DNA of 64,000 nucleotides. Origin: Luteibacter sp. UNC138MFCol5.1 (GTDB lineage Bacteria > Pseudomonadota > Gammaproteobacteria > Xanthomonadales > Rhodanobacteraceae). The stretch is from assembly GCF_900110505.1 (NCBI RefSeq), contig NZ_FODZ01000001.1, positions 462,216 to 526,215 on the forward strand, in the 5' to 3' direction. Position 1 is the first letter of the stretch. Each line of letters begins with the position of its first letter. The position numbers and the translations under genes are program-made. A model generated the notes under the pieces. The model searched no databases, was not told the DNA's origin, and saw nothing but the letters and a program-made list of their open reading frames with translations. This document shows positions 47,930 to 56,978 of the stretch, piece by piece.

Positions 47930-49846
47930 CTACGGCGCGATCGCGGTGGACGACGGCACAATCGGAAGCAAGACGGCGCTCGGTCCCTGACTGCCATGCT
48001 CGATCGTCACTGTCGCGGGCCGATAGTCATGCGGTTGCGCGAAAAAAATGTTGGGCACATATGTTTGTGGGTTGCGATCGTAGAGCGGGAAAAGCGACGA
48101 CTGCACCTGGACCATGAGACGATGGCCCGGCCTGAACGTGTAATTGATCGTCGGCAGTCGGAACCTGTATTCCTGCACGACGCCCGGATCGATGGCGGAG
48201 GGATGTTCGAAGCTCTTCCGGTAACGCCCACGGAACATCGCGAGGCTCACGGGAAGCTGGTAGCCGGACAGTTCCGGCGCGTCGGCGTTGCTGGCCGGGT
48301 AGACGTCGACGATCTTCACGACCACATCGGCGTCGCTTCCCGTGGTGCTCATGAAGATGTCGGCGACAGGTGCGCCCTGAACATGCACCGGCGCCTCGAG
48401 GATCGGCGTCTGGTAGCTCATCACGTCGGGCCGCGTGGATACGAAGCGCTGATCCTGCACCAGCCACGTCGACCAGCTCGCGTGATCGCCCATGCGGATC
48501 GGCAGTGGCTCGAACGGTACCGGCTTGGCGGGATCGGAGACGTAATTGTCGCGACCCGCGTCGGGGAGCGTGCGCGCGAGGCCGCCCTCCGGTTGCAGGT
48601 ACATCGGCGTGAGTTCGTCGGGACCGGCGCCGGGCCAGTCGGCGAAGCGCTCCCAGCGATCCTCCGCCGGGTTGTAGATGATCACGTGCGGCGTGGGCCG
48701 CGCCGGCTTGCGATCGCGAAGATAGGTATCGAAGAAGGGCAGCAGTACCTCGCTGCGAAACCAGGCCGCGGTGTCGCCGCTCCAGCGCAAGGGGCCGAGC
48801 GCATCGGCGCGGCCGTTCACCTGGCTGTGGTACCAGGGCCCCATGGCGAGGTGATTGGTCGCCGCCATCCTCTTCGCCTTCAGCGCTTCCCAGCTATGGA
48901 CGGCGCCGTAGATGTCTTCCTGATCCCATAGTCCCTGCACCCACATGGTTGGAACCGACGAGGGATGTGCGGCGACGAGTCGGTCGAGCGCCTGGCCCTG
49001 CCAGAGCGCGTCGTAGGCGGGATGGCTCGACAGGCGTTGCCACCATGGAAGCCGATCGATGCCGTGCAGCGCGGCGTATGCACCTGCCGAGCCGGCGTCG
49101 AGCATTTCCTGGTAATCGTCGCGCCCCGTCCGGGGAACGGCGCGTCCTTTTCCCTTCGCGGTGGTTTGCTCGACGACGTAGTCGAACATCTTCTGACGGA
49201 AGGCCCCGTGCTGAAACCAGTCGTCGCCCATCCAGCCGTCGATCATCGGACTCTCGGGTGCCGCCACCTTCAGTGCCGGGTGCGGATGCAACAACGCCAT
49301 GACGACCGCCCAGCCGTCGTACGACGAACCGATCATGCCGACGCGACCGTTGCTTTCGGGCACATGCTTCACCAGCCAGTCGATCGTGTCGTAGGCATCG
49401 GTCGTGTCGTCGGTCTTCGTGGGATTGAGCGGACCGATGGGAGGCCTCGTCATGACGTACGTGCCTTCCGAACCGTACTTGCCGCGTACGTCCTGCGCGA
49501 CGAGGATGTAGCCGTTGTCGGCCCAGACGCGATCGCCCGGGAGCAGGCGATCGCGGAGCCTTGCGCCGCCGTCGGATACGAACGAGCTCGCATCGTATGG
49601 CGTGCGTTCGAGCAGCATCGGTTCGCCCGTCGCGCCACGCGGGATGACGATCACCGTATGCAGCTTCACGCCGTCACGCATCGGGATCATCACCTCGCGC
49701 CTGACGAAATCGTCATCGCGAGCCGGTTCCTGCCATGCCTTCGGTATGTCACTGCCGCGCTGGACGGGATCGACCGGCGCCACCTGTGCATGGGCCGTGG
49801 AGAGAAGCAGGAGAAGCGCCGCGGCAGCCCGCACCATGGATGGCAT
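47930..49846 (-). CDS. CocE/NonD family hydrolase (alpha-amino acid ester hydrolase-like)
   Basis: A periplasmic serine hydrolase of 638 residues with a signal peptide (about 1-20, LLLLLSTAHA). The X-Pro dipeptidyl-peptidase/CocE fold shows VMIPMRDGVKLHTVIVIP, an oxyanion Tyr in LERTPYDASS, QDVRGKYGSEG and the nucleophile region MIGSSYDGW (probable S175). PLNPTKTDDTTDAYDTIDWLV and MIDGWMGDDWFQHGAFRQ are characteristic of alpha-amino acid ester hydrolases, which act on beta-lactam side-chain esters. The C-terminal jelly-roll domain is present. Monocistronic. Confidence 0.88.
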   Translation of the reverse strand: MPSMVRAAAALLLLLSTAHAQVAPVDPVQRGSDIPKAWQEPARDDDFVRREVMIPMRDGVKLHTVIVIPRGATGEPMLLERTPYDASSFVSDGGARLRDRLLPGDRVWADNGYILVAQDVRGKYGSEGTYVMTRPPIGPLNPTKTDDTTDAYDTIDWLVKHVPESNGRVGMIGSSYDGWAVVMALLHPHPALKVAAPESPMIDGWMGDDWFQHGAFRQKMFDYVVEQTTAKGKGRAVPRTGRDDYQEMLDAGSAGAYAALHGIDRLPWWQRLSSHPAYDALWQGQALDRLVAAHPSSVPTMWVQGLWDQEDIYGAVHSWEALKAKRMAATNHLAMGPWYHSQVNGRADALGPLRWSGDTAAWFRSEVLLPFFDTYLRDRKPARPTPHVIIYNPAEDRWERFADWPGAGPDELTPMYLQPEGGLARTLPDAGRDNYVSDPAKPVPFEPLPIRMGDHASWSTWLVQDQRFVSTRPDVMSYQTPILEAPVHVQGAPVADIFMSTTGSDADVVVKIVDVYPASNADAPELSGYQLPVSLAMFRGRYRKSFEHPSAIDPGVVQEYRFRLPTINYTFRPGHRLMVQVQSSLFPLYDRNPQTYVPNIFFAQPHDYRPATVTIEHGSQGPSAVLLPIVPSSTAIAP

Positions 49847-49892
49847 TCGTCGATCCTCGTGTGAGCCGTACCGTCGGCGCTTCCGGCTTCAA

Positions 49893-50423
49893 TCAACCCT
49901 CGTCCTGCCAACGACGCAGGTCCGTCTGATCGTGGTAGGGCATGCGATCGGGCGTGGTGATGAACTCCATCGTCGTGCCCCACGGCATCTGACAGTAGCA
50001 GACCTTGTTGCCCGGTCCCTTCTCGGTGGCGTACGGAATGGCGCGAGGCGCGGTGAGCGCCTTGCCACCCGCCTTCTCGAAGCGCGCGACGGAGGCGTCG
50101 ATGTCGTCGGTGTACAGCGCGAAATGCGTGATGCCGAAGTCGCTGGCGCGGATCGGCTGCGCCTGTTCCGGACCGTGCATCTCGAACAGCTCGATGTCGG
50201 GGCCGGTGCCGATCTTCACCATCGCCTGGGCGCGGACGACGGTGCCCGGGTAGGCGCCAACCGCACGCTCGAACTCGGGGCCCTGTCGCGGCGGATCCTG
50301 CGGTCCGAACGACTGATAGAGGAGCTGGCCGCCGAAGGCCTCGATGAGGAACGCTTTCGCCGCTTCGATGTCCGGAACGGTGATGCCGACGTGGTTGACG
50401 CCGCGGATTTCAGGTGCAGACAT
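49893..50423 (-). CDS. VOC-family (glyoxalase/dioxygenase superfamily) protein
   Basis: A 176-residue protein with paired beta-alpha-beta-beta-beta units. GVNHVGITVPDIEAAKAFLIEAFG and GITHFALYTDDIDASVARFEKAGG give candidate metal-binding His residues, with Glu in PWGTTMEFITTPDRMPY. Substrate unknown. The ATG at 50423 has GGAGA at a good distance; an ATG at 50435 is less likely. Last gene of the operon that begins at 53080. Confidence 0.82.
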   Translation of the reverse strand: MSAPEIRGVNHVGITVPDIEAAKAFLIEAFGGQLLYQSFGPQDPPRQGPEFERAVGAYPGTVVRAQAMVKIGTGPDIELFEMHGPEQAQPIRASDFGITHFALYTDDIDASVARFEKAGGKALTAPRAIPYATEKGPGNKVCYCQMPWGTTMEFITTPDRMPYHDQTDLRRWQDEG

Positions 50424-50478
50424 GATGGTCTCCATTGGGTTAGGGTGTTGACGTGAAGCGTGCCGAGGTCGTCCCGGA

Positions 50479-51327
50479 TCACCGGGCGCCCAGGAAATCG
50501 ATCAGTGCCGCGGCGACCTCATCGGGCCGTTCGTCCGCGACGTAGTGGCTGCACTGCGCGATCGAGCCGCCCGTGACGTCGCTCGCGAACTCGCGCAGCA
50601 TGGGTACCATCCGTGGGCCGAAGCGCTGGTCGCCGCCCAGCGCGAGGACGGGTATGTCCAGGGGCTGCTTCTTGTATTCGAGCGACGCGGCGTGGTCCGC
50701 GGTGAGCGTCCGGTACCACTCCATGCCGCCGCGTGTGCGGCCGGGTAGCGCCATGGCTTTGGCGAAGATCTCGACATCGGCCGGATCGAAGCGGCTGTGG
50801 TCGTGGAACCGCTCGGCCATGAACGCCGAGACGTAGTCGTACTCGCGTCCATGGATCATCCGCTCCGGCAGATCGCGATTCATATGGAACGAGAAGTGCC
50901 ACAGCTTCGCGATGGTCTCCTCCCATCCGCTCCATCCCGGAAGCGGAACGTCGAGAACCGCGAGATGCGTGACCGCGTCCCGGAACAGCGCCGCCTGCGG
51001 CAGCGCGACCATGCCGCCGATGTCGTGGCCGCACACCGCGTAGCGTTCATGGCCGAGCGCGCGCATCACCTCATGCGCGTCGCGCGCCATCGTCGCCTTG
51101 TCGTAGCCGTCCAGCGGGCAATCGGAGAAGCCCGCACCGCGAAGGTCGATGGCGACCACGCTGTGATGCCTGGCGAGTAACGGCATCACGTGATGCCACT
51201 CCCACCAGGTTTCGGGCCATCCGTGGAGCAGGAGGATGGGCGTGCCTTCGCCGCCCGTGACGGCATTGATCCGGATGCCGTTGACCGGAACCAGTTGCTG
51301 GGTGAAGCCGGGTAACGTGGGGAACAT
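50479..51327 (-). CDS. Alpha/beta hydrolase (epoxide hydrolase/haloalkane dehalogenase-like)
   Basis: A 282-residue cytoplasmic hydrolase. The oxyanion motif is HGWPETWWEWHHVMP, the nucleophile position is an aspartate, D102 in CGHDIGG, and the catalytic His is in QCSHYVADERPDE. An Asp nucleophile points to the epoxide hydrolase/dehalogenase branch. The start ATG at 51327 is preceded by GGAG; ATGs at 51339 and 51363 are upstream in frame but lack such a site. Third gene of the operon. Confidence 0.85.
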   Translation of the reverse strand: MFPTLPGFTQQLVPVNGIRINAVTGGEGTPILLLHGWPETWWEWHHVMPLLARHHSVVAIDLRGAGFSDCPLDGYDKATMARDAHEVMRALGHERYAVCGHDIGGMVALPQAALFRDAVTHLAVLDVPLPGWSGWEETIAKLWHFSFHMNRDLPERMIHGREYDYVSAFMAERFHDHSRFDPADVEIFAKAMALPGRTRGGMEWYRTLTADHAASLEYKKQPLDIPVLALGGDQRFGPRMVPMLREFASDVTGGSIAQCSHYVADERPDEVAAALIDFLGAR

Positions 51328-51359
51328 GCTTGACTCCATCGCGGGGCGAGCGCCCGTGC

Positions 51360-52184
51360 TCATGGGTTATCGAAATCGGTGTCGATCGACACGTCGCGCC
51401 ATGCGTCGACGTCGTGGCGCAACGAGGCCAGCTTTCGCTCGACGATCGCGTGAGCCACGGGGCCGAGCGGAAGATGCAGCGGCGGCTCGTCGTCATCGAT
51501 GGCCTGCAGGATCACGGCCACGGCCTTATCGGGATCGCCCGCCTGCTTGCCGTCGTTCGTTTCGCGATACCGGCGCCGCGAACTTGCCGCGTATTCAGGC
51601 ATCTCGTTCGCCGCCATCGTGATCGAGCGACCCAGGAACTCCGTACGGAACGGGCCGGGTTCGGCGAGGATCACCCGCACGCCGAACGGTGCGAGCTCAC
51701 CCGACAGCGCTTCGGACAGACCTTCGACGGCGAACTTGCTGGCGTTGTAATAGCCACCGCCGCCACTGCCGGCGACGCCCGCGCCCGAGGACATGTTGAC
51801 GATCGTGCCGCCGTTGCGTCGCAGGGTCGGCAGCACGGCGCGTGTCGTTTCGATCAGGCCGAAGACGTTCACCTCGAACAGCGGGCGATATTCCTCCGGC
51901 GTGCCCTCTTCGATCGCGCCGAACAGACCATAGCCGGCGTTGTTGACGAGAACGTCGATCGTGCCGAATGTCTCGAGAGCCGTCGCGACCGCGGCATCGA
52001 TCGATTCCACGCGGGTCACGTCGAGGGGCAGGGCGAGCATGCGCCCCTCGAAGGGCACGGCCATGTCGCGGATCGCGTCGACGTTGCGGGCGGTCGCGAC
52101 CACCCGATCGCCACGCGCCGCGGCGGCGAGCGCGAGTCGCTGGCCGAAGCCACTCGAGCAGCCGGTGATGAGCCAGGTCTTCAT
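51360..52184 (-). CDS. SDR-family oxidoreductase
   Basis: A classical short-chain dehydrogenase/reductase, 274 residues, with the cofactor motif TGCSSGFG, NNAG, a catalytic Ser in NMSSGAG and YNASK. The catalytic residues are intact. The C-terminal half (YRETNDGKQAGDPDKAVAVILQAID) is typical of SDRs annotated as ketoreductase-like. Substrate unknown. The start overlaps the stop of the HIBADH-family gene, showing tight coupling. Confidence 0.88.
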   Translation of the reverse strand: MKTWLITGCSSGFGQRLALAAAARGDRVVATARNVDAIRDMAVPFEGRMLALPLDVTRVESIDAAVATALETFGTIDVLVNNAGYGLFGAIEEGTPEEYRPLFEVNVFGLIETTRAVLPTLRRNGGTIVNMSSGAGVAGSGGGGYYNASKFAVEGLSEALSGELAPFGVRVILAEPGPFRTEFLGRSITMAANEMPEYAASSRRRYRETNDGKQAGDPDKAVAVILQAIDDDEPPLHLPLGPVAHAIVERKLASLRHDVDAWRDVSIDTDFDNP

Positions 52185-53080
52185 GCGTGTCCCTCCACGC
52201 TGCGGCCGGACGACGACGTCGACCCGTCGCCGGCTTGGTCGACCTCGGCCATGATCGACCAGTCCTTCTCGCCGAGGCCGGCCGACACGACGCGCGTCAG
52301 CCGCTCGCGAACGACGTCGAGCATCGGCAGGGGGCGACCGGATTCCTCGCCCAGCGCGCTGGCGAGGCGCATGTCCTTGAGCGCGAGCTTCGCCTTGAAG
52401 CCGGGCTCGAAGTTGCGCTCGGTCATCTGCGCGCTATAGCTCTCATAAGCTCGGCCGGCGAACAGCGTGCCGAGGATGAGCTCGAAGAAATCGGCGCGAT
52501 CGAGGCCGACGCTCTCGGTGAGCGCGACGCCTTCCACCATCGCCTCGATCGCCATCGCGATCATCATGTTCGCCGCGAGTTTGGCGGCGTTGGCCCGCAC
52601 CGGGTCGTCGCCCAGCTTCCACACCTTCTTGCTGAGCGGCGCGAGCACGGGCTCGATGGCGGCGATCGTGGCGGGCTTGCCAGCGGCGAGGATGTTGAGC
52701 TGCCCGTTCGCCGCGACATTCGGTCGGCCAAGCACCGGCGCCGACACGTAGCCGAGGCCCGCGGCCTCATGAAGCCCAGCCAGTTCCCGTGCGAACGCGA
52801 CCGAGATCGTCGAGGTGACGACGTGGATCAACCCAGGACGCGCATCGCGAAGCAGGCCGGCATCCAGCACGACCTCGCGGATGACCGCGTCATCCGACAA
52901 CATCGTGAAGACCACCTCCGCGCGGAACGCGTCCTGCGGACTGTCGAGAAGCGTCACCCCGGGCACCGCGTCGGGATCGACGCGACTGCGATTCCACGCA
53001 TGCACCTCATGGCCTGCCTTCACCAGGTTGCGGGCCATGGCGGAGCCCATGCTCCCAAGACCGATGAATCCGATCTGCAT
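52181..53080 (-). CDS. NAD(P)-dependent beta-hydroxyacid dehydrogenase (HIBADH family)
   Basis: A 299-residue dehydrogenase of the 3-hydroxyisobutyrate/6-phosphogluconate type. The dinucleotide motif is GFIGLGSMGSAMARNLVKAG, the substrate-binding motif region is SAPVLGRPNVAANGQL, and the catalytic Lys is in NAAKLAANMM. The sequence also resembles glyoxylate/succinic semialdehyde reductases, and substrate is not assigned. First gene of a four-gene operon with an SDR, an alpha/beta hydrolase and a VOC protein. Confidence 0.87.
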   Translation of the reverse strand: MQIGFIGLGSMGSAMARNLVKAGHEVHAWNRSRVDPDAVPGVTLLDSPQDAFRAEVVFTMLSDDAVIREVVLDAGLLRDARPGLIHVVTSTISVAFARELAGLHEAAGLGYVSAPVLGRPNVAANGQLNILAAGKPATIAAIEPVLAPLSKKVWKLGDDPVRANAAKLAANMMIAMAIEAMVEGVALTESVGLDRADFFELILGTLFAGRAYESYSAQMTERNFEPGFKAKLALKDMRLASALGEESGRPLPMLDVVRERLTRVVSAGLGEKDWSIMAEVDQAGDGSTSSSGRSVEGHA

Positions 53081-53200
53081 ATCTATCTCCGTAGCCTGTT
53101 GAACCAGTGCGCGAGCGGAGCGAAAAGCCGATGGCTTCCAACGCGTCGCGCCGATGGATTCAAGCTACCAAGAACAATATTGATCGGGGACTGACAGGGA

Positions 53201-53240
53201 TGAACAATGGGTGTTCAAATATGTTCGGCGGGGCCGAACA
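53201..53240. promoter_or_regulatory. Two tandem inverted repeats in the divergent HIBADH/small-ORF region
   Basis: TGAACA-N5-TGTTCA occupies 53201-53217, and TGTTCGGC-N3-GCCGAACA occupies 53222-53240. Both share the half-site TGTTC. They lie between the HIBADH operon start (53080) and the small gene at 53298. The first has the layout of a dimeric regulator operator; the second could also fold as an RNA hairpin. No regulator gene is adjacent. Confidence 0.45.
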
Positions 53241-53297
53241 GGCTGGTACCGGCCTGTGCCCGGCTCGATCCCAATCGAATATCTTCCGGAGTGCCCA

Positions 53298-53537
53298 ATG
53301 AAGTATTGCGACGGACAAGTCAGCCAGCTAGGCGACATCGTTTCCTTGGGAGGAAAGCTGGGTACGGTAGTTTGCGATATCGACGGCGGTCAATACGGGA
53401 GTGCTGCCGAATATTCGTCCGATCAGTGGGCCTACCTCGGGGCAGGCGTCATGATCGAGTTCGGGAGTTTTGGTCTTATCCATTACACGGAGCCCGAGCA
53501 CGATTTAGTGCTCGTGCGCCGCGTAGAGGATGAGTGA
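53298..53537 (+). CDS. Small hypothetical protein
   Basis: A 79-residue acidic protein, soluble, with SQLGDIVSLGGKLGTVV, AEYSSDQWAYLGAGVMIEFG and FGLIHYTEPEHDLVLVRRV. The compact beta-rich look resembles small orphan proteins often found near toxin/immunity cassettes, but no family can be named. The ATG at 53298 has GGAG seven to ten bases upstream. It lies at the edge of the lower-G+C segment that holds the reverse transcriptase, facing away from the HIBADH operon and converging on the RT gene. Confidence 0.6.
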   Translation: MKYCDGQVSQLGDIVSLGGKLGTVVCDIDGGQYGSAAEYSSDQWAYLGAGVMIEFGSFGLIHYTEPEHDLVLVRRVEDE

Positions 53538-53669
53538 CTTGACCAGCATCGGACGCTAGTTCGATCTGTCACTGAAAGCGGGAGCGTCGGCTCGGCAATC
53601 CGATGACATCAAATGTTCGCGCCGCTCCCTTGGGCCGAGTGGCCCTCTCGTACGTTGCGAGGCCGTACC

Positions 53670-56600
53670 CTAAACCTCGAGCTCTCTATCAATTGACATC
53701 TCAAATCCGATGGGAAGCGGTTTGTAGAGATCGTCTTTCGATATTGTTGCTGCCCTATGGAAGGATCTGAGGGCCGCGACGTTGAGAGAGGCAACCACAA
53801 AGTAGTCCTCATCCCCCCCCTTCACGCGAACGACATCTCGCTCGAAGTCGCGACGAAAAGGGGCTCTAACCCGGCTGTCGCCGTACCTGCGATTATTGAC
53901 CTGCACAACGTACGCATGAACATCTAGCGCTGCGGACTCAACAAGTGCTGAGAAAGACGTCGTATCGGGGTTCCATTCAAGTGCAAACACACTATCCACG
54001 AAGCCCTGTGCGTGTCGACGATTGTCTATATTGGTGAGGTCGCTACACAGCAAGACACTGAAGAAGTGCGACCCGTGCCGAAATATTGGCCTGCATTCTT
54101 CAATGCATGGAGGCTTGTAGAAGACGCGTCCAGCGTTCTCAACAGCTTCCGCCTCGTGATGGGCGGGAATCATCTTTGGCTGAGCATACAAGACATGTGA
54201 TCCATATCCCGGCCAGCGGCTGGCCAACGAGATCAATGCGTCGTTTCGAACGGCGCCAGTTCGCTTCCAGTTCTCTAGTCCGCAGAGAACCGAGATCCCG
54301 AGCTTAGCAAGCTTAATGGACACCGGAATTGCCCAGCGGCGGGGCAAGCTGGCCTCGGGAAATACAATGTAATCCACAGGCTCATCACATCGAAGAATGT
54401 CATTGATGAGTCGATGAATTCGTTTGTAACGTCTAACACCAAGATCTGGAGATTTAAGGAGCGCGCGATTCCATTGCTCGTCGCTTGAGAGGAAGCTGGT
54501 TAGCGCAACCTTATAGGTTGGCTTCGACCTATATGGTATGGAGAGACTGTTTACGTGTGGGCGAAGTTCGTTTCTCGACATCCGTGGAGCACGGTCAATC
54601 CGGATTCGCGCGCCCCGAAGCGAGAAAATTGCGTCTTCTAGCTGCACCGGACTTTCAAGAAGAGCCGGTGCTGAGAAAATAATCTCTGCAACAGATAACG
54701 GCCGCGTCGGAAATGCTATCGCAGGCCAATACGGTCTCTTGAGCCCGCTTGTTACGCGTTTGCGAAATCTAGTGATTCCAGCCAGGCGGAGCGCGCGCAG
54801 TACGTTCTTGTCTTTCGACACCGGAGGCTGGCGTCCCGAATCACGATTATCCTCGAACCAAAAGTCCTTATAGGAACGTCTTCCGAAATCACATCGAAGA
54901 ACGCGCTCGGAAAGGTCCTTTACTGTATTCTTAGCCTGCGGCACGCCGCGAACGTCGTAAGTCCTCTTGATCTTACGAAGAACACCAAGAAACTCTGGCG
55001 AGAACTTGAATCCGCCAACAGTTGACGACTGGATTGCCGTTCTGTAGAAGCCTTCGCCGTAAAACTTTAGGCAGCTTCTAAAGGCCTTTGCCTGATCTGT
55101 CCCGGCAGTCGAGGTAGATTTAATTAGCGTTGCGACCCTTTCAAAGGCGTCAAGAAACTGGCTCGCGAACTCGTGGTCGCCGCAAGCGACCATCAGCCCG
55201 AAGACACGATCCAAGTACGCGTGATAATTAAAGAATCCCCTTGGTGTTAGGACGTGGCGAAGCACGAGACCGTAGAAGGCACTTCGCTGACTAAGCCAAG
55301 CCCTCGGCTTTAGATCGCGTGCATGAGCTTCGATGTCCCGAAGAAGAAGAGCAAAGCCTAGCCTCCGAACTGACACAACGTCAGCTTTTCGAAGTGCATC
55401 AGCCTCTAACGTCGCATCAGGAGTGGCAAGCAAGGCCTTCGAAATCATCTCACTGTCGTCCTCAGGGAGGTCCGGAAGGAGTCGATGCTCGCTTGACTTC
55501 TGCTTGATCTGATCCTCGATTTGGTCGATCAGATCCAGGCCCTGTCGCCCGGATAGCACGAAGATTTTCTGTTTGTCACCGGAAAACTCGATAAGTGAGT
55601 CCTCGGCATATGGCGGTGCGAAGAGCAGCGTCGGTGGACTGCGGTCTCCACTGATTACCTTCAACGATTTCGGGGAGAGCTCAGCGATCCACTTGAGGAA
55701 GTCTCGCCCGGAGCTAATTCCAGCATCTCGTGAACACACAAGGAAAAGGTCGTCGACGTATCGGCCGTAGTAGATTGGCTTGAGTTTTTTCTGGATAAGC
55801 CGGTCAAATTCAACCAATACAAGGTTTGAGATGATCTTCGACGCAGACAGGCCCACTGGAAGGCCGCCTTCTGGACGCACCTTGGCGTCGGGAGTCCTTC
55901 GGTACCAATTCTGGATGCTTTCGATGAAATCTTGAGTAAATAATCTCTGATCTTCGCTTAGATGGACGCCGCACACTTCCATAAACTCGGGCGCTAGAAG
56001 AAACGTAGGGGACACGTTGTGATAGAAGCGCCGAATATCCATTGTCACGGAGATAATCGGGAGGTCCCGAACGAGGGCTGTGCGCATTGCTTGAAGACCA
56101 CGCTTTCGCCAGGCGCTGTACGCGCCGAAGTATGGAACAAATAAGCCTGCACACTCTTCGTTGACTACGCCCGCGCTGTGTTTCGATGACCCTGCACGAC
56201 GCAACCTGTTACCGTAGGTGCATTTAGGATCGAGCTTCGCGTCGTAGCCTTCACCGGCCTTGATGATCCATAGAGCAGAAACGATTTGATACTCGATCGA
56301 GGCCCGAATAACTAGTCGGAAGTCGGCGCGGGCGCGTTCTCGCGACGATTCTTGATAACGATGACTCCAATCATCGGTAACATCAGAGATCGAGAAATGC
56401 ATAGACCCCGACTTCCAAGAGTCAGGCTCAGTGATTGATTTGGGGACGTAAGCGTACCCACCGATGAACCTGGTGTCGTCCACCCAGTCGCCCCGCTCAA
56501 GGCGGCTTTGCAGCGCCTTGAGGTTTACACCAAGGTTGCGCTCATAGGCGTCAAACTTCAGTGGGTCGCAATGCATTCCCTCGTAGAACGCTTCAGCCTT

Positions 56601-56672
56601 CGCTTTTCGGTAGGCGCGGTAGATGTCCGCGAGCGTTATGAATTCTGCTGAGTAGCGCGGTCTGCTGGCCAA
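53670..56672 (-). CDS. Reverse transcriptase-nitrilase fusion (UG1/DRT1-like defence RT)
   Basis: A 1000-residue fusion. The reverse transcriptase (about 110-450) has motif A TMDIRRFYHNV (D212), motif B GGLPVGLSASKIISNL and motif C YGRYVDDLF with the YVDD box at 305-308. A helical middle region (about 450-690) follows. The C-terminal nitrilase-fold domain (about 715-965) has Glu E773 in IVFPEASLP, Lys K833 in QPKMIP and Cys C876 in LLCSDLTN, so the triad looks intact. RT-nitrilase fusions form class 1 UG/Abi RTs (UG1, also named DRT1, and relatives), reported anti-phage genes. The start is TTG at 56672 with AGGGGA upstream; no early ATG fits. Composition is lower in G+C than flanking genes (22/60 bases at 54361, 31/60 at 55081). 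It stands alone, near tRNA-Ile2. Confidence 0.92.
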   Translation of the reverse strand: MASRPRYSAEFITLADIYRAYRKAKAEAFYEGMHCDPLKFDAYERNLGVNLKALQSRLERGDWVDDTRFIGGYAYVPKSITEPDSWKSGSMHFSISDVTDDWSHRYQESSRERARADFRLVIRASIEYQIVSALWIIKAGEGYDAKLDPKCTYGNRLRRAGSSKHSAGVVNEECAGLFVPYFGAYSAWRKRGLQAMRTALVRDLPIISVTMDIRRFYHNVSPTFLLAPEFMEVCGVHLSEDQRLFTQDFIESIQNWYRRTPDAKVRPEGGLPVGLSASKIISNLVLVEFDRLIQKKLKPIYYGRYVDDLFLVCSRDAGISSGRDFLKWIAELSPKSLKVISGDRSPPTLLFAPPYAEDSLIEFSGDKQKIFVLSGRQGLDLIDQIEDQIKQKSSEHRLLPDLPEDDSEMISKALLATPDATLEADALRKADVVSVRRLGFALLLRDIEAHARDLKPRAWLSQRSAFYGLVLRHVLTPRGFFNYHAYLDRVFGLMVACGDHEFASQFLDAFERVATLIKSTSTAGTDQAKAFRSCLKFYGEGFYRTAIQSSTVGGFKFSPEFLGVLRKIKRTYDVRGVPQAKNTVKDLSERVLRCDFGRRSYKDFWFEDNRDSGRQPPVSKDKNVLRALRLAGITRFRKRVTSGLKRPYWPAIAFPTRPLSVAEIIFSAPALLESPVQLEDAIFSLRGARIRIDRAPRMSRNELRPHVNSLSIPYRSKPTYKVALTSFLSSDEQWNRALLKSPDLGVRRYKRIHRLINDILRCDEPVDYIVFPEASLPRRWAIPVSIKLAKLGISVLCGLENWKRTGAVRNDALISLASRWPGYGSHVLYAQPKMIPAHHEAEAVENAGRVFYKPPCIEECRPIFRHGSHFFSVLLCSDLTNIDNRRHAQGFVDSVFALEWNPDTTSFSALVESAALDVHAYVVQVNNRRYGDSRVRAPFRRDFERDVVRVKGGDEDYFVVASLNVAALRSFHRAATISKDDLYKPLPIGFEMSIDRELEV

Positions 56673-56687
56673 TGCTATCCCCTATAG

Positions 56688-56709
56688 CCTTACTGCCAGC
56701 ATAGTAAGG
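56688..56709 (-). promoter_or_regulatory. Stem-loop in the leader of the RT gene
   Basis: CCTTACT (56688-56694) and AGTAAGG (56703-56709) form a 7-bp stem with an 8-base loop, 15 bases upstream of the RT start codon and just ahead of its ribosome site. It may influence translation or be part of an RNA bound by the RT. It lies in the 230-base non-coding stretch between the RT gene and the tRNA, which is A+T-rich and otherwise featureless. Confidence 0.4.
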
Positions 56710-56902
56710 GTTTGCGCAACGTGGGTCACGCACCCGGAACGGGCTCCTCACGATGTCTTCGGATTATTTTTCGCCCATTAAGGCAGGTCGCCGTGCCATG
56801 ACATGAAAAGATCGTCGCGTTTCAAAAAATCAAAAATGGCCGGCTGGGCCGATCTATGCTTTTCAGAACACTTTTTTTCTGGCGAGATAGCCCGGAGTGC
56901 GT

Positions 56903-56978
<76 letters not shown>

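Follow-up and report, generated by a model that had tools for sequence, protein, structure and literature searches.

The locus analyzed here raises the question of which family is represented by a gene that joins a reverse transcriptase (RT) to a nitrilase domain, and how far its mode of action may be read from that of characterized relatives. The gene lies on the minus strand at 53670..56672 of the window, namely the whole 64,000-nucleotide (nt) stretch of Luteibacter sp. UNC138MFCol5.1 (contig NZ_FODZ01000001.1) that was analyzed. It encodes a protein of 1000 amino acid residues from a TTG start at 56672, exactly as given in the original prediction, which had been made from the DNA letters and had proposed a class 1 anti-phage protein of the UG1/DRT1 type, perhaps of a UG5/UG6-like subgroup. 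The protein belongs to an already known system, the UG5 RT-nitrilases. We consider it likely, by analogy with its relatives, that it is a horizontally acquired, defense-associated UG5 (class 3) RT-nitrilase with a mechanism like that of DRT1. What is established here is its family membership, the intact catalytic residues of the RT and the nitrilase, a DRT1-like motif, purifying selection and signs of mobility.

The family was assigned by profile scores and an RT tree. RVT_1 was the only Pfam profile past the cut-off for the protein (2.1e-7; residues 209-316). In PADLOC, the RT_UG5-nitrilase model (PDLC03780) matched with 922.3 bits, residues 10-996 being aligned to profile positions 20-896 of 907, and it was followed by a second UG5-nitrilase model (145 bits), RTasNitrilase (131 bits), UG5 small (107 bits) and Drt1a (66.8 bits). 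The Drt1a match was weak and partial, consisting of two stretches and not extending over the full length. The original prediction had named a placement of the RT with retrons, group II introns or diversity-generating retroelements (DGR) as grounds for rejection; by hidden Markov model (HMM) score, the retron, group II and CRISPR-associated RT models reached at most about 40 bits among the matches listed, which are the best 25 of 72 families and include no DGR model. In the RT tree, the rows of which were UG5 and DRT1 only (retrons and group II being compared by HMM score), the window protein grouped with the other 16 UG5 rows against five DRT1 rows with a support of 100/100, some of the DRT1 branches being long. 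Its nearest row was that of Rhodanobacter sp. L36 (locus L002), followed by L039, L031 and L040, the order among which was not resolved. The RT parts of the UG5 and DRT1 profiles were alignable with an E of 6e-18.

By these scores and this tree, the protein is UG5 and not UG1/DRT1, so the hedge of the original prediction towards UG5 held and its first choice did not. Membership in UG1/DRT1 proper would account for the shared layout of RT plus nitrilase and for the shared C-terminal motif described below; it is refuted by the Drt1a score (66.8 against 922 bits), by the separation of the DRT1 and UG5 rows in the tree, and by a length of 1000 residues against 1229 in DRT1 (PDB 9YFD), and it is left with practically no probability. 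The class 1 label also had to be given up. Nitrilase-bearing DRT1 is termed class 3 in Neville 2026 (PMC13275509; statements on published work here and below refer to excerpts of the papers cited), which cites the UG/Abi classification and whose class labels are followed here; the window protein accordingly falls in class 3 rather than class 1. In another study, RTs of these two classes were grouped in one subclade (PMC12632851). Nor is the system as obscure as had been supposed, since anti-phage activity of a UG5 RT-nitrilase with a transmembrane (TM) partner (PMC9122126) and the structure and mechanism of DRT1 (PMC13275509) have already been published.

The RT palm core comprises residues 206-345 (55638..56057, approximate limits; this and all features of the protein given below are on the minus strand), as judged from RVT_1 and the invariant catalytic residues. 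The codon of the first catalytic Asp, D212, is at 56037..56039, the YVDD codons of the active site (residues 305-308) are at 55749..55760, and the motif GGLPVGLSASK is found at residue 269. D212, D307 and D308 were identical in 17/17 UG5 proteins compared. Two of these rows, L033 and L042, have no fused nitrilase and were used for the RT positions only, hence n=15 for the nitrilase; L026 lacks the N-terminus, and L151, in the DRT1 set, lacks the C-terminus. Excluded from the counts were L036/L146 (G909, with an in-frame stop, the pieces of which were not joined) and the own or duplicate loci L025, L029, L032, L034, L153 and L154. Of the plasmid matches, those nearly identical to H1 (H2 and H3) or to H9 (H10) were left out, and H5 served for context only.

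The nitrilase domain occupies residues about 717-1000 (53673..54524) and was recognized by PADLOC (the RTasNitrilase match given above), by profile alignment, and by AlphaFold2 with Foldseek, in agreement with the fusion first proposed from the sequence. The profile check suggested in the original prediction succeeded for the RT half only: the CN_hydrolase Pfam profile had no listed match with an E of 1 or below, and a search with it alone would not have revealed the nitrilase domain. When the nitrilase region was aligned with a profile of DRT1 relatives (E 4e-25), E773 (54354..54356, catalytic Glu), K833 (54174..54176, catalytic Lys), E840 (54153..54155, second Glu of the tetrad) and C876 (54045..54047, nucleophile) stood opposite the Glu, Lys, Glu and Cys of DRT1. 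All four were identical in 15/15 UG5 proteins with the domain in the same protein. The RT and nitrilase residues and the motif listed in the original prediction were all found where it had placed them; E840 was missing from its list. An AlphaFold2 model of residues 690-1000, made with five relatives, had a predicted local distance difference test score (pLDDT) of 82 and a predicted template modeling score (pTM) of 0.86. Its best PDB match in Foldseek had an E of 1.6e-11, and the TM-score by query was 0.49-0.59 among the 50 matches listed, which we take to be members of the nitrilase superfamily (among them N-carbamoylputrescine amidohydrolase, Nit2, Nit3 and a Pyrococcus amidase). The C-terminus thus matches the nitrilase fold, a mismatch to which the original prediction had also named as grounds for rejection.

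Near the C-terminal end, the segment K984-P-L-P987-I-G989-F990 (53703..53723) was identified by alignment and conservation as the counterpart of the DRT1 lid. It is aligned opposite K1219-T-Q-P1222-A1223-G-F of DRT1; K984 and P987 are kept in 15/15 UG5 proteins with the domain and G989 in 14/15, and K-x-x-P-A-G is kept in all four full-length DRT1 relatives. In DRT1, the final 19 residues are swapped between tetramers and cover the nitrilase pocket, and with K1219A or A1223F the defense falls to the level of the C-terminal deletions, that is, it is abolished (PMC13275509). The shared K-x-x-P-x-G motif, as a matter of conservation rather than function, is the strongest new support for a mechanism common with DRT1, which it suggests.

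A candidate for the DNA-priming residue was sought in the same comparison. In DRT1, DNA is primed on S402, which lies in a post-palm loop lacking resolved cryo-EM density (PMC13275509). The Ser, Thr and Tyr residues of the window protein that are identical in 17/17 UG5 rows are Y181, Y302, Y305, S394 and S794. S794 is in the nitrilase domain, which is absent from two of the 17 rows, so its 17/17 identity means little; S394 (55491..55493) is the only Ser or Thr of the RT and thumb that is identical across the 17 proteins. It is located 86 residues past the last catalytic Asp (77 for S402 in DRT1), and both serines are near the end of a helix-like stretch as judged by eye. Residues 351-450 (55323..55622), just past the palm and containing S394, form the least-diverged 100-residue stretch relative to L002, with 2/100 differences against 160/1000 overall, a value as low as which was obtained in 3/10000 permutations. 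Recent DNA exchange as the cause of this identity was set aside, given that divergence at third positions is similar in this stretch and outside it (24 and 25 of 50). S394 may be the DNA primer; we put it forward as a candidate of our own and as a test rather than a result, and it could instead be structural.

If the protein works as DRT1 does, the RT would add semirandom DNA to a hydroxyl residue of its own, S394 being our proposed primer, without an RNA template. The DNA adducts would drive the assembly of the nitrilase domains and would keep the C-terminal K-x-x-P-x-G segment in place as a lid covering a neighboring active site. Phage replication proteins would then disturb the lidded state, after which the nitrilase would act on an essential metabolite and the infected cell would die or stall. 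The corresponding steps reported for DRT1 are Ser402-primed synthesis, filaments and the lid (PMC13275509). The RT might alternatively behave like class 2 enzymes and copy a non-coding RNA encoded in cis, the product DNA being the signal or toxin. Such RNAs are used by other DRTs, namely DRT2, DRT3, DRT9 and DRT10, and the 230 nt that separate the tRNA described below from the gene would be available for one. The flanks have no similarity to those of L002 despite 84% protein identity (one close relative being available for this comparison), the 188 nt upstream show no unusual RNA structure (folding z of -0.25, with 76/200 shuffles folding as well), and in Rfam the gathering score was reached by the tRNA only, with three weaker matches, none of which is in the insert. 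Moreover, DRT1 and DRT5S/L of class 3 make template-free, covalently attached DNA, and the synthesis persists in the presence of RNase A (Neville 2026, PMC13275509). Copying of a cis-encoded RNA is therefore judged clearly improbable.

A further point is whether the gene requires a membrane partner. Drt1b/RTasTM genes are found beside the RT in L039 and L040, phage-contig relatives with 43% identity (141 and 195 bits), and beside that of L041 (541 bits). At L041:1349-4908, full-length matches to PDLC02995 (958 of 958) and to RTasTM PDLC03013 (229 of 229) were observed, with an integrase-like gene adjoining as judged by eye. L041 most probably corresponds to the P4-satellite system reported in Rousset 2022 (PMC9122126), in which a UG5 RT with a C-terminal nitrilase and a one-TM partner had anti-phage activity, assayed at room temperature. 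In the window's genome and in that of L002, neither PDLC03821 nor PDLC03799 (Drt1b/RTasTM) was matched, both of which did match control phage records, and the two flanks of the window gene contain no hydrophobic open reading frame (ORF) of at least 40 residues. This is what would be expected if a required partner had been lost or left behind and the copy were an orphan, inactive or partly active. PDLC03821, a profile that also misses the L041 type, was absent from 12/12 UG5-carrying genomes searched and from two plasmids, and PDLC03799 from the four bacterial genomes in which it was tried; UG5 genes without the PDLC03821 partner are thus common in this sample. The orphan explanation is also opposed by the purifying selection seen along the protein and by the defense that DRT1 provides without drt1b (PMC13275509), and on balance it is unlikely.

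The selection was estimated against the closest relative found, the gene of Rhodanobacter sp. L36, in a protein scan of one-per-species genomes. Nonsynonymous divergence over the coding sequence was 0.093 and synonymous divergence 2.2 (NG86) or 1.5 (YN00), synonymous sites being saturated; as estimated from this sequence pair, the coding sequence is under strong purifying selection. At the DNA level, the two loci share a single match, 53683-56672, which covers the coding sequence only, and nothing outside it at E 1e-3. The stretch that holds the L002 gene also encodes a serine recombinase, a DUF2924 protein and a ParB-like/DNA methylase. The L002 locus further contains, without a mismatch, a stretch of G552, a genome of the window's family, and the host is accordingly most likely a member of the Rhodanobacteraceae. 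With the own genome included, matches were obtained in 4/369 genomes of the class, 5/233 of the family and 5/398 of the phylum, and five plasmid records contain relatives. A second member of the window's genus (G012) has a UG5 protein of a different, well-supported branch at another genomic place. No relative was found in GenBank phages. In IMG/VR, 80 of the 183 relatives found were kept, and in four of these (L039-L042) the match extends past the RT core. Two viral scans, each with a single protein, gave no relative, and a scan with the nitrilase alignment gave only the L039 and L040 contigs again. The gene is rare, patchy and mobile.

The insertion site is consistent with this. As had been noted from the sequence, the gene is a low-G+C insert by a tRNA: its G+C content is 0.530, compared with 0.679 beyond the insert region, and each of the 12 lowest G+C bins (3 kb) among those listed overlaps it. 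G+C and the comparison of tRNA flanks delimit a foreign tract at about 53100..56900 (approximate ends), between the gene at 52181-53080 and a tRNA with the anticodon CAT (56903..56978, minus strand), in the 3' flank of which the insert sits. When the 6-kb 3' flanks of the same tRNA were compared in the window and in 20/22 relatives of the genus, 11/21 had a block in common with one or more of the others, usually at differing offsets, and 10/21 had none. The window flank has such a block in common with L120 alone; the block is in inverted orientation and lies past the low-G+C tract, and the tract itself has no similarity to the tRNA 3' flanks of the 20 relatives (blastn, E 1e-10 for both). From these alignments, the 3' flank of the CAT tRNA is a variable insertion hotspot. 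No second copy of the tRNA 3' end was found at the far end of the tract in a search for att-site repeats, the listed repeats being short and mostly intragenic; no tyrosine-integrase match was obtained in the window, though the genome has six, and serine recombinases were not searched.

A host gene of other function, such as a metabolic nitrilase with a polymerase or a stress-response gene, would fit the metabolic-looking neighbors on the 52181 side and a window in which no defense gene is seen to adjoin. The patchy occurrence and foreign composition described above, the mobile contexts of relatives (a serine-recombinase element, plasmids and phage contigs), the defense neighbors in other genomes and the validated relatives all oppose it, and it is very improbable. 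Ten neighbor proteins of relatives, from seven loci, were picked by eye, and 8/10 match PADLOC families at 1e-15: five match DISARM, type I specificity or PglX/type IIG families, and three match PDC-S candidate families only.

Some arrangements at these loci may be recorded in their own right. At L145:4514-11225 (G897), a UG5-nitrilase gene is flanked on the same strand by ORFs of 649 and 577 amino acids (aa), overlapping one of them by 4 bases and separated from the other by 2; these ORFs match positions 1-619 and 638-1203 of the 1205-position type IIG model PDLC03600 (and PglX models too), so that the RT gene stands between the two halves of a methyltransferase. At L146 (G909), a UG5-nitrilase gene that a single in-frame stop divides into pieces of 594 and 417 aa is beside a PDC-S02-type gene. 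L150 and L151 are two Sphingomonad plasmids with DRT1-like genes, and the L151 copy ends early, with an IS256-like transposase gene just beyond. A Drt1a profile search of 274 genomes, own included, gave no match even in the controls and was uninformative.

Several points weigh against the proposed DRT1-like defense protein. Phage defense by the window protein is predicted from its relatives; no defense gene is seen beside its own copy, and 2/10 neighbors of relatives, an Mrr-like nuclease (L142) and an ATPase-like protein (L144), had no PADLOC match at 1e-15. The AlphaFold2 model of the full-length protein is of low quality (pLDDT 53) and was used as weak support only; its Foldseek list is a mixture of DRT6, DRT4, DRT9, Abi, retron, DGR and nitrilase matches. 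Profile alignment does not pair S394 with S402 (hhalign, four settings; the pairing fails past the DKQKIF hairpin), and according to the authors the remaining class 3 DRTs do not conserve S402 (PMC13275509). The validated UG5 RT-nitrilase had a TM partner, none is recognizable here, and the L041 protein, most likely of that validated system, is 23% identical to that of the window. Finally, the equation of DRT5S/L of Neville 2026 with UG5 small and large is our own, and in another 2026 paper DRT5 denotes a family in the older DRT1-9 list (PMC13213688).

A more specific proposal, that UG5 RT-nitrilases are DRT1-like single-gene systems gated by a lid and primed by the invariant S394, is made tentatively, and we regard it as somewhat doubtful. 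If it were true, the nitrilase-bearing DRTs (class 3) would have relied ancestrally on serine-primed adducts and a C-terminal K-x-x-P-x-G lid, with an optional membrane partner joining later. Neither the primer residue nor the nitrilase gating of UG5 was found in the excerpts of the literature consulted, and the comparison reduces both questions to single codons, S394 for priming and K984 and P987 for the lid. A maintained copy with no recognizable partner also makes it possible to examine whether the Drt1b/RTasTM membrane protein is required. The value of the finding lies in these specific, testable residues, two in kind, and in an evidently maintained copy that has no recognizable partner.

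The remaining features of the tract and its surroundings are as follows. ARAGORN labels the CAT tRNA as Met; its sequence may be closer to that of tRNA-Ile2 (CAU). A putative terminator-like stem 3' of the tRNA (56840..56852, minus strand) possibly separates tRNA and RT transcription; five such stems were found in all, against a mean of 3.9 in shuffles, which is not above chance. An accessory ORF of 108 aa (53211..53537, plus strand) is in the same low-G+C tract, has no Pfam match above the cut-off and none in NCBIfam or PADLOC, and has homologues in 20/233 family genomes (own included) at scattered positions, as a dispersed accessory family; it is probably not a UG5 partner. On the far side, 47930-53080 is a block of peptidase-like, VOC-like, hydrolase, SDR and 3-hydroxyisobutyrate-dehydrogenase-like genes (the peptidase and VOC names being assigned by eye), which, of the 20 relatives examined, only G014 (L120) also has next to this tRNA, four of the genes being in inverted order there.

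Compared with known systems, the window protein is closest to the UG5-nitrilase type of PDLC03780, with a near full-length match, the fused RT and nitrilase and all catalytic residues; it differs in its host family and its partner-free setting, and literature searches turned up no functional test of a close relative. An association of UG5 with nitrilase has been reported at 50% co-occurrence (Sharifi and Ye 2021, PMC8934634). DRT1 (UG1; 9YFD) has in common with it the RT plus nitrilase, the catalytic tetrad and the C-terminal lid segment, but it is 229 residues longer, belongs to a separate RT clade, and its S402 has no confidently aligned counterpart in the window protein. The P4-satellite RT-nitrilase (most likely L041) is likewise a UG5 RT with a C-terminal nitrilase, whereas L041 clusters with the UG5 small RTs (100/100) and has an adjacent TM gene, which the window locus lacks. 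The UG5 small RTs with a separate nitrilase gene (PDLC03781; L033, L042) are of the same RT type and have Ser at the S394 position, but their UG5-type nitrilase is a second gene next door; at L033:1504-4370 (G588) and L042:5998-8863, the two genes are overlapping or adjacent. As L041 is fused and L033 and L042 are split within the same RT clade, the state of fusion changes within the clade.

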